Positions 16 to 9,668 of a stretch of 9,668 nucleotides of DNA are shown here, in pieces. Source of the DNA: Candidatus Desantisiibacteriota bacterium. Its GTDB lineage: Bacteria; JACRDZ01. The notes beneath the pieces are model-generated. The model searched no databases. It saw only the letters and a program-made list of their open reading frames with translations, and was not told the DNA's origin. How positions within the stretch are numbered: position 1 is the stretch's first letter; each line of letters begins with the position of its first letter. The stretch is taken from NCBI GenBank assembly GCA_016209155.1, contig JACQWU010000083.1, positions 1-9,668 on the forward strand, in the 5' to 3' direction. Made by a program: the position numbers and the translations under genes.

Positions 16-1200
16 TCATGATATTTTCTCGACTTCCTGCTCAATTTTTAATTTTTTGCCGGAACTTTCAATAAAAAAACTAACTAATTTTCTAAAATCA
101 CCCAGTTTCTTAATATCAACCTCATCTTTTTCTGTTTTTGTTTCTTTAGGATTCCATTCCCCCTGCCGTCCACCAATAATAACTTTTGTAGGACCATACG
201 CGCTTAAATTCATTTGAGAAATAGAATGATTGGTCATTACATTTATAGGTTCATCGTCAAACAAAACAGCTGCAATATGTAACCTATTGTTTTGTTTGAT
301 GGAATTAAATATAATCTGGTTAATATGCTGATCTAAAAATGAATAACCACTAATTATAAATAATCCTTCGCCATCTTGTAAATAACTATTTAAACGGTCA
401 AAATATGTAATAAAAGGTTGTTTTCTTGAAGCTTCATATTTTTCCCGAGACGGATATATCACCAATTCACCTGTATTCCCGTCTGAAGGTTTTGAATGTG
501 CCCCCATCCGTACTACACGATATGAATCGATTGATTTATTTTTTTTCCAAAACCAATTAAATGATCCATGCAATTTCCATAATCTAATCCATGACAAAGG
601 TATCATTTCTGACTTGTCTTTTGGTTCTATACTTTCAGGATAAAAAAAAGCTTCATTCCCTCCAACAAAACCATCGAAATATGGAATTTGTAAACCTTCT
701 AATGATTTTTCTAAAATAAGATCATAATTTGTCGTGAATATTTCTTTAGTGAAATCACGATTTAGCCAATTTAACCATGATAAAAATTTTTTAATTAGAG
801 AAAGATCCGCTGTTTGTTCTTTTTCCGATATTATTTCGGAAATTTTGTCGCAAACATCTTTGTCAAGTTTTTCAGAATCACTTCCAGAAATAGAATTAAA
901 CTCTTGAGTCTCAAGTCCCTTGGTTAACATTCTAATTAATCGTATCTGATTTAAAATATCTTCGATAGTGGGTGCTGAATTTCCATGCGCAAACAAACAT
1001 TCTTTTATTTTTTTAATTTTCGGTTGATCGTTGGGGTCAATTCCTGCTTCAACCAATTTTGTTAATTTTTTAATGTCAGGTAATTCTAATGCGGCAGAAA
1101 TCCCTGCCCCTAAAAAGAAACCAACTCTCCGAGATATAGATAATTGATTTGTAAGTTCATTAAGTTCTTTTTTTGTATCAAATATCGCAGTTTCGGTCAT
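16..1200 (-). CDS. SIR2-like (SIR2_2-type) putative NADase, likely anti-phage effector
   Basis: 394 aa and complete. The nucleotide-binding loop GAGIS is at residues 31-35, TTNYD at 156-160 (the N/D pair of the sirtuin core), LHG at 210-212 with His211 in the catalytic position, and a FIISGYSFLD strand at 281-290 that resembles the closing GxGxxD segment of SIR2_2 proteins. No zinc-ribbon cysteines are visible, so this is not a canonical deacetylase; prokaryotic members of this type usually cleave NAD+ during phage infection (family knowledge). There is no signal peptide or membrane segment, so it is probably cytosolic. The start is supported by AGGAGA (1206-1211) five bases before the ATG. 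It lies 59 bp downstream of a YhcG/DUF1016 remnant on the same strand, at the end of a row of broken defence-like genes, and is the only intact member. Its regulator or partner is unknown. The sequence does not show whether it acts alone or has lost a partner. Confidence 0.85.
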   Translation of the reverse strand: MTETAIFDTKKELNELTNQLSISRRVGFFLGAGISAALELPDIKKLTKLVEAGIDPNDQPKIKKIKECLFAHGNSAPTIEDILNQIRLIRMLTKGLETQEFNSISGSDSEKLDKDVCDKISEIISEKEQTADLSLIKKFLSWLNWLNRDFTKEIFTTNYDLILEKSLEGLQIPYFDGFVGGNEAFFYPESIEPKDKSEMIPLSWIRLWKLHGSFNWFWKKNKSIDSYRVVRMGAHSKPSDGNTGELVIYPSREKYEASRKQPFITYFDRLNSYLQDGEGLFIISGYSFLDQHINQIIFNSIKQNNRLHIAAVLFDDEPINVMTNHSISQMNLSAYGPTKVIIGGRQGEWNPKETKTEKDEVDIKKLGDFRKLVSFFIESSGKKLKIEQEVEKIS

Positions 1201-1793: not shown

Positions 1794-1885
1794 TAATCGT
1801 GTAGTTAATCATGTAATAATTGGTATAATCGTGTAAAAATAATCGTGTAATTAATCGTGTAATTTTATCCATAATCGTGTAATTA
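1794..1885 (-). repeat. Repeat array C: six copies of TTACACGATTA in a duplicated 46-bp unit
   Basis: On the plus strand TAATCGTGTA occurs at 1794, 1806 (one mismatch), 1826, 1840, 1852 and 1872. The spacings are 12, 20, 14, 12 and 20, so a 46-bp block (1794-1839) is repeated at 1840-1885 with 36 of 46 positions matching. The cores are conserved and the spacers differ. It begins in the stop codon of the winged-helix fragment at 1883. One minus-strand frame stays open across it, but spacings of 20 and 14 are not codon multiples, so it is not kept as a protein repeat. It could be an operator-like array or iterons, or a DNA-level expansion. Confidence 0.8.
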
Positions 1886-2158
1886 CCTTGCCAGATACAC
1901 AACGTTTCTTCCTTTGCCTTGAATTAGCGCCATATCTTTTTGAACAAGATGATTTAAATCCGTTGCAGCAGTTTTATTAGTTACTTTGAAAATATTTCTA
2001 TATATCTTATTGGTAATCCTTTTACCTTCATTCACCATCAATCTCAATGCTTCAATCTGCCTCTCATTTAGTCCCAGTTTTTTCAGATCAGTCTGGCGTT
2101 CTTCAGGAATGCTCGATACAAGATCCAAGATCTTCTCTCCGGGCCCATAAAATTTCAC
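1883..2158 (-). CDS. Fragment: C-terminal winged-helix domain of the DUF4062/ATPase protein
   Basis: 91 codons from a GTG at 2158, overlapping the TGA of the previous fragment (GTGA). It opens with KFYGPGEKILDLV, which in intact relatives follows directly on the ATPase domain, so the GTG is probably an internal valine and not a true start. The winged helix runs from LGLNERQIEALRLM to LVQKDMALIQGKGRNVVYL and is predicted to bind DNA or to serve as a regulatory module. Translational coupling through the overlap could give a separate product, but a frameshift is simpler. Confidence 0.6.
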   Translation of the reverse strand: MKFYGPGEKILDLVSSIPEERQTDLKKLGLNERQIEALRLMVNEGKRITNKIYRNIFKVTNKTAATDLNHLVQKDMALIQGKGRNVVYLAR

Positions 2159-2598
2159 AACAAAAAATCGCCTTCTTCTGATAAATCAGGCACCGAAAGA
2201 CCATGTTCTTTCATCAACTTCTTTATTTTGCCTATCCCTGTTCCAAATCGCTCCATATCCATGGTTTCATGGAAAATATTACAAATTTTTTCATTACGTG
2301 TAACATGATTACCTTCTAATTTTTTTATATTCAGTCCCGGTAAAAGGCCTCCGGGGTTTCTAACTTCAACACGATCGTCAAAAATCGATACCATAATAGG
2401 AGCACCCATGCGGGTATAATCTCGATGCGCAATAGCATTAATAATAGATTCACGGATAGCTTCAAATGGATACTCCGGAATATCCACTCGTTTAAATTCA
2501 ACTATTTTATTTGCTAATCGTGTGTTTCTTTTAAAAAAGTTTTCTACTTCATCCAGCATTTTGTAAATTGTCCCTTTTATCTCCTGAGAATCAATCAT
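2155..2598 (-). CDS. Fragment: GHKL-ATPase (HATPase_c_4) domain of the DUF4062/ATPase protein
   Basis: 147 codons from the first ATG after the nonsense codon. It contains the helix IRESIINAIAHRDY (the N-box-like Asn of GHKL ATPases), the strand DDRVEVRNPGG, and the motif MERFGTGIGKIKKLM. The open frame continues upstream to 3036 with good family similarity (KGPFDV, LFPTNAALLFFGKNP, EIRIARFQG), so the ATG at 2598 is internal, with no evident Shine-Dalgarno. It ends early at TGA 2155-2157 because of the T6 frameshift. Confidence 0.65.
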   Translation of the reverse strand: MIDSQEIKGTIYKMLDEVENFFKRNTRLANKIVEFKRVDIPEYPFEAIRESIINAIAHRDYTRMGAPIMVSIFDDRVEVRNPGGLLPGLNIKKLEGNHVTRNEKICNIFHETMDMERFGTGIGKIKKLMKEHGLSVPDLSEEGDFLL

Positions 2599-3022
2599 CG
2601 CAAGTCTTGAAGTACCTTGAAATCGGGCAATACGGATTTCATGATGAGAAATATGTTCAGTAGGATTTTTACCAAAGAAAAGTAGTGCGGCATTGGTTGG
2701 AAATAAATCGTTATTTTCTTTTTTAACTACTTTAAGCGTATCAATAAGAAAATTTTTTATTGAAATATCAGGAATTGAAACCTTCAGTTTAATAGCACGA
2801 TTCTGTAAAAAATCTTTTACTGCTTTTTCATCAATAGCATCGTAATCAAGATCTTTGCGTATAGAAACATCAAAAGGGCCTTTTCTGAATTCCCCTTTAT
2901 CATCAAGAAAGGAAATGAGGCTATTAAGAATCTGAGTTTTTAGGTCATCTATATTATTAAATCGTTTATAAATAAATGATGATTTTATATTTTTGAAAAA
3001 AGTTTGTGTGTCAGAATCTCGG

Positions 3023-3038
3023 TTTTTTTTTTTTTTTT
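3023..3038 (-). repeat. Homopolymer A16 on the coding strand, beside an in-frame stop
   Basis: Sixteen consecutive T on the plus strand (A on the coding strand). The preceding TAA uses the first two A. Intact relatives carry a polar loop here, so the tract may have replaced it. Slippage in the tract cannot bypass the stop because the TAA lies at its 5' end. Confidence 0.9.
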
Positions 3039-3357
3039 AACTACCATTAATAAAAGCTAGAATATCTCCATTTGATTTGGATTTCAGGAAATGTCTAAAT
3101 TCTCGTTCTGTCGCTGAAAGACCATCTTTGCCCTTATCTCCGTAATTATTCCCAATGATACAAATATATACATCGCTATTAGCAACGTTTTTCAGATAGA
3201 TTGAGAGCGCAGAGTTCCCTTTAGCGGGGAGATCTTCAAACAGAAAAACGTTAAAATATCCGCGAAGGACAGAATTGTTGTTAATTATCTCCTTAATGGC
3301 AAATCGTTCATTTTTAAGTTCTTTTTGATTGGCGCTTATAAATAATTTATATTTCAT
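3037..3357 (-). CDS. Fragment: DUF4062 N-terminal domain
   Basis: 106 codons from an ATG with AGAGGA five bases upstream. It matches the DUF4062 pattern: YKLFISANQKELKNERFAIK, then VFLFEDLPAKG, SDVYICIIGNNYGD and SATEREFRHFLK. The domain normally heads a protein of about 500 aa. Here it stops at TAA 3037, just where the linker to the ATPase part should begin. As a stand-alone product it would be a bare sensor or TIR-like domain. It follows the helicase fragment by 15 bp on the same strand, so the two were probably one transcript. Confidence 0.7.
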   Translation of the reverse strand: MKYKLFISANQKELKNERFAIKEIINNNSVLRGYFNVFLFEDLPAKGNSALSIYLKNVANSDVYICIIGNNYGDKGKDGLSATEREFRHFLKSKSNGDILAFINGS

Positions 3358-4733: not shown

Positions 4734-6356
4734 ATGAAAAATAAATTAGAGCAACAACCTTTAGAAGTTATTCTTGATAAAATGAATCCAGTAACAGATA
4801 AACAAAAAGAACAATTTAAAAAATTTAAAATATATTTTTGTTTTTTTGTTGGTTTTATTGACAATATATTCCAAAATGAATTAAAAAAACTTGACTTTAA
4901 AAATGTTGAGGAAATTTATTCATTTACTAAATTAGAAGAAAGTATTGGTTGTTTTCATAAAGCATCGACAATATTTGAGCCACAAGAAAGAATTGATTTT
5001 ATGAATTTAGCTGAAAAAATCGGTATTCAACTTTTGCAACAAAAGAAAATTGAAAAAAATTGGACGGATGAAATAGTAAAAGAACGAAGTTTAGGTTATG
5101 GAAACTCACAAAAACTTATTGTCTTTTTCTATAATACGCCAACCTCAACTTTGCCAATCCTATGGGAAAAAGGAACATACAATGGTAAAGAATGGTTAAA
5201 ACCTACCAAGAGAAATATTTTTGATAACAAAACTTTATTTAGAGAAATTCGCGAGTTAATTCTTTCAGCGAGAAACACTGTTGTAAGAAATGTTGATACC
5301 ATTCAGGTTATTACGAGTTTTGAGATTGGCCGCAGAATTGTGGAGTATGAACAAAAAGGTGCCTTTCGAGCTGAATATGGTAAAGAACTTTTGGTCAATC
5401 TTTCCCGCAGCTTAACAGCAGAGTTCGGGACAGGTTTTTCTGATCGGAATTTACGAAATATGCGTAAATTTTATTTAGTCTATCAAGACCGATCCCCTCA
5501 CATTTGGCAGATGGCATCTGCCAAATTGATTGAAGGACAAAAAAGTCAGACTATGTCGGACCAATTCAAGGATGTTCAGGTTCCCGGAATTTCGCAGATA
5601 CCATCTGCCAAATCAGGAAAACTGATATTTGGTCTTAGCTGGTCCCAATATGTTTTCCTTATCGGGATTAAAGACGATAATACCCGCAGTTTTTATGAAA
5701 TAGAAGCGGAAAATAATGGATGGACATTGCCTGAGCTCACGCGTCAATTTAACTCTGGACTCTATGAACGATTGGCATTGAGCCGTGATAAAGAAGGTGT
5801 TCGGAAATTAGCAAAGGAAGGCCAAGTTATCACAAAGTCTGAGGATTTGTTGAAAGAACCGTACGTCTTGGAATTTCTTGGTCTTGAGGAAAAATCAAAA
5901 TATTCAGAATTCGATTTGGAATCTGCGATTATTGACAAGATTGAGCAGTTTCTTCTTGAACTTGGCAAAGGGTTTCTTTTTGAGGCGCGACAGAAAAGAT
6001 TTACTTTTGACGAGGATCATTTTTTTGTCGATCTTGTTTTTTATAACCGCTTGCTTAATTGTTATGTTTTAATTGATCTTAAAATTGGCAAAATAACGCA
6101 TCAAGATTTAGGACAAATGCAGATGTATGTTAATTATTTTGACCGATATGTGAAAACAGAAAAAGAAAGCTCAACTATCGGAATTATTCTTTGCCGCAAA
6201 AATCGCGAAGCCATGGTTGAAATTACACTTCCAAAAGACGCTAACATTCACGCGAAAGAATACCGACTATATCTGCCGTCAAAGGAAGAGCTAAAACGCA
6301 AACTTCTCGATTGGACAAGCGGGAAGGATGTATTGGTAAAAAATGAACAAAGTTGA
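4734..6356 (+). CDS. YhcG/DUF1016 PD-(D/E)XK nuclease with an unusual N-terminal domain
   Basis: 540 aa. Residues 1-160 are unrecognised. Residues 165-350 match the DUF1016 N-terminal domain (LFREIRELILSARNTVVRNV, SFEIGRRIVEYEQKG, FSDRNLRNMRKFYLVYQ, LSWSQY, FYEIEAENNGW). Residues 373-520 are the nuclease: EFLGL, ESAI and IEQFLLELGKGFLFEARQ, then FFVDLVFYN with D433, IDLK with D448 and K450, GQMQMYVNYFDRY with Q461/Q463, and TIGIILCRKNREAM. These give a plausible complete active site. Family members are common in defence and restriction-linked islands (known); the substrate here is unknown. The usual family start lies near residue 165, so the N-terminus is a fusion. It is also far richer in A+T (8 of 60 G+C at 4801-4860 against 27 of 60 at 5701-5760). 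Start: GGTGA (4722-4726) seven bases before the ATG. The linker at 255-300 carries repeats. Confidence 0.85.
   Translation: MKNKLEQQPLEVILDKMNPVTDKQKEQFKKFKIYFCFFVGFIDNIFQNELKKLDFKNVEEIYSFTKLEESIGCFHKASTIFEPQERIDFMNLAEKIGIQLLQQKKIEKNWTDEIVKERSLGYGNSQKLIVFFYNTPTSTLPILWEKGTYNGKEWLKPTKRNIFDNKTLFREIRELILSARNTVVRNVDTIQVITSFEIGRRIVEYEQKGAFRAEYGKELLVNLSRSLTAEFGTGFSDRNLRNMRKFYLVYQDRSPHIWQMASAKLIEGQKSQTMSDQFKDVQVPGISQIPSAKSGKLIFGLSWSQYVFLIGIKDDNTRSFYEIEAENNGWTLPELTRQFNSGLYERLALSRDKEGVRKLAKEGQVITKSEDLLKEPYVLEFLGLEEKSKYSEFDLESAIIDKIEQFLLELGKGFLFEARQKRFTFDEDHFFVDLVFYNRLLNCYVLIDLKIGKITHQDLGQMQMYVNYFDRYVKTEKESSTIGIILCRKNREAMVEITLPKDANIHAKEYRLYLPSKEELKRKLLDWTSGKDVLVKNEQS
5502..5526 (+). repeat. Perfect palindrome in the YhcG linker, copy 1
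   Basis: The arms ATTTGGCAGATG (5502-5513) and CATCTGCCAAAT (5515-5526) are exact reverse complements around a single G. It is read in frame as part of IWQMASAKL, residues 257-265. Confidence 0.85.
5589..5613 (+). repeat. Degenerate second copy of the 25-nt palindrome
   Basis: It is identical to copy 1 at 22 of 25 positions and keeps the right arm CATCTGCCAAAT exactly. It starts 87 nt (29 codons) after copy 1, so it stays in phase and encodes ISQIPSAKS (residues 286-294). Confidence 0.8.
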
Positions 6357-6453: not shown

Positions 6454-7026
6454 ATGATTGATACTGCGGATTTTAAAAACGGGATGAAACTTGAACTTGA
6501 TGGGGTGCTTTATGAAATTGTTTATTTTCAGCATGCGCGTACAGCTCAAAGAAGAGCTTTTGTAAGGACTAAACTAAAAAGTTTATCCACAGGTTCAGTA
6601 GTTGAAAAAACTTTTGCTGCCGGAGAAAAATTTCCGGATCCTGATTACTCAGAACACAATATGCAATTTTTATTTCAAAGCGGTGATGATTATACTTTTA
6701 TGGATACACGCAATTATGAGCAAATAGTAATTAAGAAAAATCAATTAGGTGACGCATGGAAATATTTTCATGAGAGCATTGAAGTTGCTGTGCAGTTTCA
6801 TAAAGGAGTAACAATAGGAGTTAGATTGCCTATTACAGTTGTATTTAAGGTAATAGAGACTGAACCCTCATTCCGCGGGGACACTGTTTCAGGAGGAGGC
6901 AAACCCGCAAAAATAGAGACAGGAGTTATGATTTCAGTCCCTGTATTTGTCAATATCGGAGATTTGATAAAGATAGATACACGTACAGGTGAATATATAG
7001 AAAGAGTAAAAGATAAGGATAAATAA
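6454..7026 (+). CDS. efp: Elongation factor P with a non-canonical tip loop
   Basis: 190 aa, close to the family's 185-190. EF-P binds between the ribosomal P and E sites and relieves stalling at polyproline. The N-terminal KOW-like domain (1-62) is followed by two OB domains (about 65-128 and 129-190). The C-terminal signature is GDTVSGGGKPAKIETGVMIS, then GDLIKIDTRTGEYIERV. In the tip loop the usual KPGKG is replaced: QHARTAQRRAF spans residues 26-36, and Q32 falls where E. coli has the modified Lys34, with R33 and R34 next to it. Neither the Lys nor the Arg modification signature is present. Start: GAAAGGGGA (6438-6446) seven bases before ATG 6454; a longer frame from TTG 6436 would run through that site. 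The stop overlaps the hisB ATG by one base. No EF-P modification gene (epmA, epmB, earP) is in the window. Confidence 0.95.
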   Translation: MIDTADFKNGMKLELDGVLYEIVYFQHARTAQRRAFVRTKLKSLSTGSVVEKTFAAGEKFPDPDYSEHNMQFLFQSGDDYTFMDTRNYEQIVIKKNQLGDAWKYFHESIEVAVQFHKGVTIGVRLPITVVFKVIETEPSFRGDTVSGGGKPAKIETGVMISVPVFVNIGDLIKIDTRTGEYIERVKDKDK

Positions 7027-8299: not shown

Positions 8300-9481
8300 A
8301 TGCTGTTTAAAAAATTTTTAATTACACTTCTGTTTTTGCTTATTATTATTTTTCCAATTATAAATTATGCGGGGACTGTTTATATTGATGAAATAATTAC
8401 CTCTAATCCTGCAAATGCAACAGTTAAATTTTTTTATTATTTACCGGATAAAATTTTAAAAATCAATTCTAAAGCTAATGTATTGGTTTGTGTGGGCGGG
8501 CTGGATAGTTCAGGTGATCAGTTTATGACTGATACATGGAAAAATTTTGCGGATAAAGTTGGATATATTATCCTTGCTCCGTATTTTCGTTTTAATAATG
8601 ATGATTGGCTAAATGGAACCAGTTATCAATATCCTTACTCATGGTCCGGAGAAGCTTTAATAAATATGTTAGATAAAATAAATACAACTACTCCGTATCA
8701 ATTATATATGTTTGGATTTTCTGCCGGAGCTCAATTTGTTCATCGTTTTGCTTTATTGTACCCTGAAATAACAATCGCAGTTCATGCTCATGCGGCCGGA
8801 GAATATACTTATCCGCAAAAAAAAATAAATACTCACTTTTTAATTTCCGTCGGGCAGAATGATACAGATCGATTGCCCAAAGCGCAAAATTTTTATGATC
8901 AGTGTGTTTATTTAAAAATCCGGGCTGAATTAATTATATATCCAAACCTTGGACATGCATTAACACAAAAACAAATAGATGACGGGCAAAATTTTTTAAT
9001 CCCAAATCAACCTCCAATTGCAAATAATGATTCTAAAGTGGTTAAAGGCACTGCTCAAACAATAATTGATGTACTCGCAAATGATATAGACCCGGATGGT
9101 GATAAAATATCAATAAAAGAAGTTGCAAATGGAGCAAACGGTACAGTAATGAATAATGGAGATGGAACAGTAACATATACTGCAAATTCAAATTTGAAAG
9201 GGATCGATAGTTTTTTATACATCATAGCTGATGAGGAAGATTCATATGATACAGGAATTGTCAACATAACTATTGTTCCGGTAGTACCGGGTAATAATGA
9301 CCCGGTAGCAAATGATGATTTTGTACCAATAGATTATGATACTTCAGTTATAATTGATTTACTTGAGAATGACACTGATATAGATGGCGATCTTTTAACG
9401 GTTATAGAAGTTGCAGAAAGTACAAACGGCATGGTAATAAATAATGGGGGATGGAACAATAACCTATACTCCGGTGATTAA
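8300..9481 (+). CDS. Secreted alpha/beta-hydrolase with C-terminal Ig/cadherin-like repeats, frame interrupted
   Basis: 393 codons before a premature stop; the real protein is longer. A signal peptide occupies residues 1-24 (KK, a long hydrophobic core LITLLFLLIIIFPII, then NYA before GTV). The hydrolase domain (about 27-235) has VLVCVGGLDSSGDQF, the nucleophile elbow GFSAG with Ser141, a probable acid in VGQNDTDRL (Asp188 or Asp190) and His219 in LGHALT. This looks like an esterase or depolymerase; the substrate is unknown. Two Ig/cadherin-like (Big_9-type) repeats follow, at 238-326 (PPIANNDSKVVKG, LANDIDPDGDKI, NNGDGTVTYT) and from 334 (DPVANDD, LENDTDIDGDLL). The reading frame breaks at the G5 run 9446-9450. 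Start: AGGATA just before ATG 8300, 24 bp after hisH. Its place behind hisH may be incidental. Confidence 0.8.
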   Translation: MLFKKFLITLLFLLIIIFPIINYAGTVYIDEIITSNPANATVKFFYYLPDKILKINSKANVLVCVGGLDSSGDQFMTDTWKNFADKVGYIILAPYFRFNNDDWLNGTSYQYPYSWSGEALINMLDKINTTTPYQLYMFGFSAGAQFVHRFALLYPEITIAVHAHAAGEYTYPQKKINTHFLISVGQNDTDRLPKAQNFYDQCVYLKIRAELIIYPNLGHALTQKQIDDGQNFLIPNQPPIANNDSKVVKGTAQTIIDVLANDIDPDGDKISIKEVANGANGTVMNNGDGTVTYTANSNLKGIDSFLYIIADEEDSYDTGIVNITIVPVVPGNNDPVANDDFVPIDYDTSVIIDLLENDTDIDGDLLTVIEVAESTNGMVINNGGWNNNLYSGD

Positions 9482-9668
9482 AAGCAGCGGGATAGATAGT
9501 TTTTCTTATACTATAACTGATGATAAAGGCGGATTTGATACAGGAACAATTAATATAACTATTAAAGTAAATGTTGAACCAATTGCTAATGCAGGGGAAG
9601 ATCAATCAGTTAATACCGGCACACAGGTAACAATTAATGGTACATTAAGTTCTGATCCAAATGGAGAT
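9447..9668 (+). pseudogene. Frameshifted continuation of the repeat-bearing hydrolase, cut by the window edge
   Basis: Removing one G at 9446-9450 restores NNGDGTITYTP, which matches NNGDGTVTYTA of the first repeat, then SSGIDSFSYTITDDKGGFDT and GTINITIKV complete the second repeat. A third domain begins EPIANAGEDQSVNTGTQ, the typical start of a PKD/Ig-type module, and is still open at 9668. The frame at the right edge is therefore coding. Whether the break is real or an error cannot be told from one sequence. Confidence 0.75.

Follow-up and report, generated by a model that had tools for sequence, protein, structure and literature searches.

Can an elongation factor P (EF-P) work when its tip carries neither the lysine nor the arginine that well-studied modification systems use, and which residue would then take over? 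The question is raised by the efp gene in a 9,668-nucleotide contig of a Candidatus Desantisiibacteriota bacterium (JACQWU010000083.1), the whole of which is called the window here. The tip residue of EF-P and its modification are regarded as the heart of the action of the factor. An earlier note on this DNA read the tip loop as QHARTAQRRAF, with Gln32 at the site of Lys34 of E. coli EF-P, flanked by Thr-Ala and followed by two arginines. Its premise, a tip of either Lys or Arg in known EF-Ps, was too narrow: in a census of 1,166 EF-Ps, the tips A, M, N, and Q are also on record, and Gln accounts for 0.6% (PMC6544042, 2019).

The remainder of the protein is that of a standard EF-P with a clean reading frame, as the earlier note had described it. 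The open reading frame is complete from ATG to stop, and the sequence upstream of the ATG is GAAAGGGG. The protein has the KOW-like and two OB domains of bacterial EF-P, scores above the family cut-offs, and reaches 227 bits with the NCBIfam model TIGR00038 for efp (cut-off 185.8). Its AlphaFold2 model has a mean pLDDT of 89 and matches EF-P structures over its length with Z-scores of 18–22; 185 residues align with the EF-P of C. glutamicum at 2.3 Å. A profile search for EFP_N in the window genome gave a single match, which is this efp. The window genome is 79% complete and its relatives are 98–100% complete; therefore, absences from the window genome are weaker evidence than those from the relatives.

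The reading of the loop was confirmed by translation. No gaps are needed to align the tip region with more than 130 EF-Ps, or with solved EF-Ps, and the alignment places Gln32 at the Lys34 site, Thr30-Ala31 at the Pro-Gly site, and Arg33-Arg34 following. Because the strands of the predicted model span residues 18–28 and 36–43, the loop consists of the seven residues R29-T30-A31-Q32-R33-R34-A35, with Gln32 in the center. The structure-based comparison that could have revealed an aligned Lys or Arg at the tip thus agrees with the sequence alignment: the tip is Gln, and misalignment of a Lys or Arg does not explain it. The Pro-Gly-Lys of the lysine type is absent from the tip, which reads Thr-Ala-Gln in the alignment, as is the tip Arg of the rhamnosylated type, the site of which is held by Gln32 in both the sequence and the model. 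The loop also contains no Lys acceptor, which a YmfI-dependent EF-P needs; YmfI is itself one of a very large superfamily of oxidoreductases.

Table 1. Positions of efp, its tip loop, and other features of the window.
Feature	Positions	Strand	Basis or remark
efp, elongation factor P, 190 aa	6454..7026	+	Pfam EFP_N, EFP, Elong-fact-P_C; TIGR00038
Tip region QHARTAQRRAF, residues 26-36, beta3-beta4; DNA CAGCATGCGCGTACAGCTCAAAGAAGAGCTTTT	6529..6561	+	Translation; R29-A35 loop in predicted structure
Gln32 tip codon CAA (E. coli Lys34 position)	6547..6549	+	Ungapped alignment with EF-Ps and solved structures
Arg33 codon AGA, tip+1, proposed substitute for the tip residue	6550..6552	+	Tip+1 Arg rule
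YhcG-type PDDEXK nuclease, just upstream of efp	4734..6356		N-terminal region matching PRTase-CE
SIR2-like gene	16..1200	-	
Several short open reading frames	1883..3357	-	By eye, pieces of larger genes
Esterase-like protein with bacterial Ig repeats	8300..9668		Apparent frame change near 9450
Open reading frame resembling the esterase-like protein	from 9444		

The loop is not peculiar to the window. In a scan of species genomes, the eight residues ARTAQRRA turned up again in CP070770.1 (L032, filed as Deltaproteobacteria), in the Zixiibacteriota genomes L034 and L035, and in L053 and L059, which are filed as Omnitrophota. The hosts of the loop comprise part of the phylum Zixiibacteriota, one "Deltaproteobacterium", two "Omnitrophota", and one further small phylum. 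With all eight residues found unchanged in independent genomes, neither chance nor error can be the source of the loop. An origin by compensated frameshift was considered and dropped, as the near neighbors TARRRA (L226) and MARRGA (L126, L151) exist. When a profile of the loop domain was compared with 386 genomes from across Bacteria, G000, G001, G003, G012, G160, and G190 ranked at the top, followed by a drop in score. G012 and G160 belong to the phylum Zixiibacteriota, since the same contigs and coordinates came up in a search of that phylum. Matches were obtained in 118 of 132 genomes of this phylum, and of 70 loops read, 32 have a Gln tip and the rest an Arg tip. Within the phylum of the window, G001 and G003 carry the loop TAMRKA and G002 carries VNPGKGSA; a further Gln motif, SK[IM]AQRSP, occurs in L048 and in the genus g74. 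Many uncultured bacteria have ARTAQRRA, with little or no variation, in their sole true EF-P. The Gln-tip loop is real and widespread in a few uncultured lineages.

EF-P is a single-copy protein in nearly all Gln-tip genomes examined, including relatives up to 100% complete, and the second efp that the earlier note proposed to look for was not found in the window genome. The genome SM1_73 (G392; L171, L184, L186) contains three EF-P stretches, two of them at contig ends; one of the contig-end stretches has the full ARTAQRRA, and the third stretch is of the VTPGKGQA type and possibly a contamination.

The residues around the tip follow a rule that depends on the tip itself. It was derived from 220 distinct EF-Ps. 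Relatives of the window are over-represented in this sample, which means that the following counts are not frequencies; related sequences are, moreover, not independent. All 90 Lys tips stand between Pro-Gly and Gly. The residue after the tip (tip+1) of the 78 Arg tips is Gly in 73, Arg in four, and Asn in one. Each of the 41 Gln tips is preceded by Ala and followed by Arg, and the three Met tips are also followed by Arg. Taken together, Gln and Met tips have Arg at tip+1 in 44/44 sequences and Pro-Gly before the tip in 0/44, and this rule holds in at least three separate places of the tree. The eight Asn tips (L082, L094, L122, L129, L135; L031, L115, L127) display a second compensation-like pattern, PGN[WL]R, in which Pro-Gly is kept and the tip is followed by Trp or Leu and then by Arg at tip+2.

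Trees of EF-P built without the loop columns do not group ARTAQRRA proteins into the one clade that the earlier note had raised as a possibility. The window protein clusters with L032, G001, and G003 (support 96/94), and the set from Zixiibacteriota, Omnitrophota, and G190 forms another clade (support 100/100). The two Gln-bearing clades may be sisters: joining them costs almost nothing and is tolerated by the AU test (p 0.51). Within the clade that contains Zixiibacteriota, loops of the KMGRGG, KVARGG, and QTGRGR types are scattered among ARTAQRRA proteins, and the TARRRA protein of L226, which differs by one residue at the tip, is sister to an ARTAQRRA protein. Within Zixiibacteriota, a test on a quick tree rejected a single clade of all Gln tips (AU p 0.0018) and likewise a single clade of all Arg tips (p 0.0008). 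Histories with one switch of the tip are thus rejected, and a single origin of ARTAQRRA, tolerated at the level of the two clades, fails within Zixiibacteriota. The interleaving of Gln and Arg tips and the rejection of single clades indicate that one loop has been exchanged for the other while the body of the protein hardly changed. The loop has thus switched several times while the body stayed EF-P, and the best explanation is that both loops perform one and the same task.

EpmA and EarP, two of the modification enzymes named by the earlier note, were sought by profile search, and neither was found. All strong hits with the EpmA model in the genomes tested are LysRS-like proteins of 477–528 residues that score below the EpmA cut-off, and the 79%-complete window genome contains only such long hits. 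EarP was found in none of the 33 test genomes; the same model gives a match in the control genome G025, beside an efp of the SGRNA type. A modification enzyme encoded beside efp was dropped as a candidate: the neighbors vary between lineages, and none of those compared is a likely modifier of EF-P. Efp is accompanied by hisB-hisH in the window and by RNase H-like and IF-2B-like genes in Zixiibacteriota. PPG and PPI are present in HisH and in the neighboring esterase, which counts in favor of a working EF-P.

Several other features of the window were recorded (Table 1). Either an assembly error or a genuine frameshift could account for the apparent frame change in the esterase-like gene. The PDDEXK nuclease and the SIR2-like gene possibly constitute a defence region, and the short open reading frames on the reverse strand suggest decayed genes.

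We consider it probable that the window encodes a genuine, sole, and working EF-P of a Gln-tip subtype, in which Arg33 replaces the tip residue and no known modification pathway is employed. This reading is favored by the single copy, the recurrence of the loop, its interchange with Arg tips, and the failure to find EpmA, EarP, or a modifying neighbor. The strict occurrence of Arg at tip+1 makes Arg33 the likely contact to the tRNA. Arg33 would supply the positive side chain that stabilizes the tRNA, assisted by Arg29 and Arg34, and Gln32 would form a neutral apex. The protein would probably be unmodified and may relieve polyproline stalling. A functional unmodified Arg tip has a precedent in EfpL (PMC11611912). 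The N. meningitidis EF-P, which works poorly when its Arg32 is unmodified, counts against this reading (PMC4739656). Furthermore, the substitutions K34Q, P32S/G, and G33A/S each abolish the activity of E. coli EF-P (PMC6544042), and a different loop geometry or ribosome context would therefore be needed. These single changes would fit a weakened or inactive EF-P whose role has passed to ABCF ATPases, YebC, or other factors. Such a loss is improbable: drift or disappearance would be expected of a decaying factor, but the individual residues of this loop are kept from phylum to phylum, and the loop trades places with Arg tips. Among the options offered by the earlier note, an unmodified subtype and the use of Arg33 fit jointly. 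Its third option, a paralogue with another job, could account for the several positions at which the loop departs from the Lys and Arg types; it is highly improbable for a protein that is the only EF-P of its genome and of relatives up to 100% complete, and that scores as a canonical efp, far below the EfpL cut-off.

A new modification of Gln32 or Arg33, introduced by an enzyme so far without a known link to EF-P, has a modest chance of being correct. Most characterized EF-Ps are modified at the tip, and the majority of Gln-tip genomes contain a deoxyhypusine-synthase-like (DHS-like) gene: in Zixiibacteriota, 28 of 32 have it, as opposed to 8 of 37 non-Gln genomes read; in the broad sample, 7/7 have it, as opposed to 145/386 overall. 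The catalytic-type WGK motif is intact in the five proteins checked; genes with WGK include G000:C146:4113-5009 and those of L207, L208, and L209. Bacterial members of the DHS family often make polyamines, and there is a small chance that novel chemistry on Gln32 or Arg33 is tied to enzymes of polyamine metabolism, for example the DHS-like protein. However, deoxyhypusine chemistry requires Lys, which the loop lacks; the TAMRKA genomes are without the DHS-like gene; and no modifying gene adjoins efp. The widely varying match strength and profile coverage of the DHS-like genes suggest different subfamilies. The uncorrected association in Zixiibacteriota is strong, but a phylogeny-aware test had only four secure, independent contrasts, so the association cannot be called significant. 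The DHS-like enzyme as a partner of EF-P is thus suggested by the counts and unsupported once relatedness is considered.

Compared with known systems, the preferred reading, an EF-P acting through Arg33, differs from each characterized type. The lysine type (EpmA/YmfI) and the unmodified actinobacterial subfamily share the three-domain fold, but the window loop is wholly without Pro-Gly-Lys-Gly. The reliance on an unmodified Arg that is proposed for the window protein is shared with EfpL (YeiP); however, EfpL is a second copy with a longer loop, whereas the window protein is the only EF-P of its genome, has the standard seven-residue loop, and scores 110.5 bits against an EfpL cut-off of 216 bits. 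The arginine type, rhamnosylated by EarP, also lacks Pro at −2, and Arg-tip relatives are interspersed with Gln tips in Zixiibacteriota, but in the window protein the tip is Gln and Arg follows one position later, and EarP is absent from the test genomes. Searches of the literature for the TAQRR loop and for EF-P in Zixibacteria found no study of Gln-tip EF-Ps. In the literature found, including the accessible part of PMC6544042, Gln tips are otherwise uncharacterized and known as a bare residue frequency: that part counts them and tests the E. coli K34Q point mutant, and does not describe the tip+1 Arg, the near-invariance, or the switching. A natural, conserved loop that combines several changes, each inactivating in E. 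coli, with Arg moved by one position, and that has repeatedly been swapped with Arg tips, is a convenient means of testing which features of the tip the ribosome requires and whether modification is necessary. The Gln-tip class counted in the census is defined by Gln at position 34 and no Pro at position 32, and the window EF-P has both.
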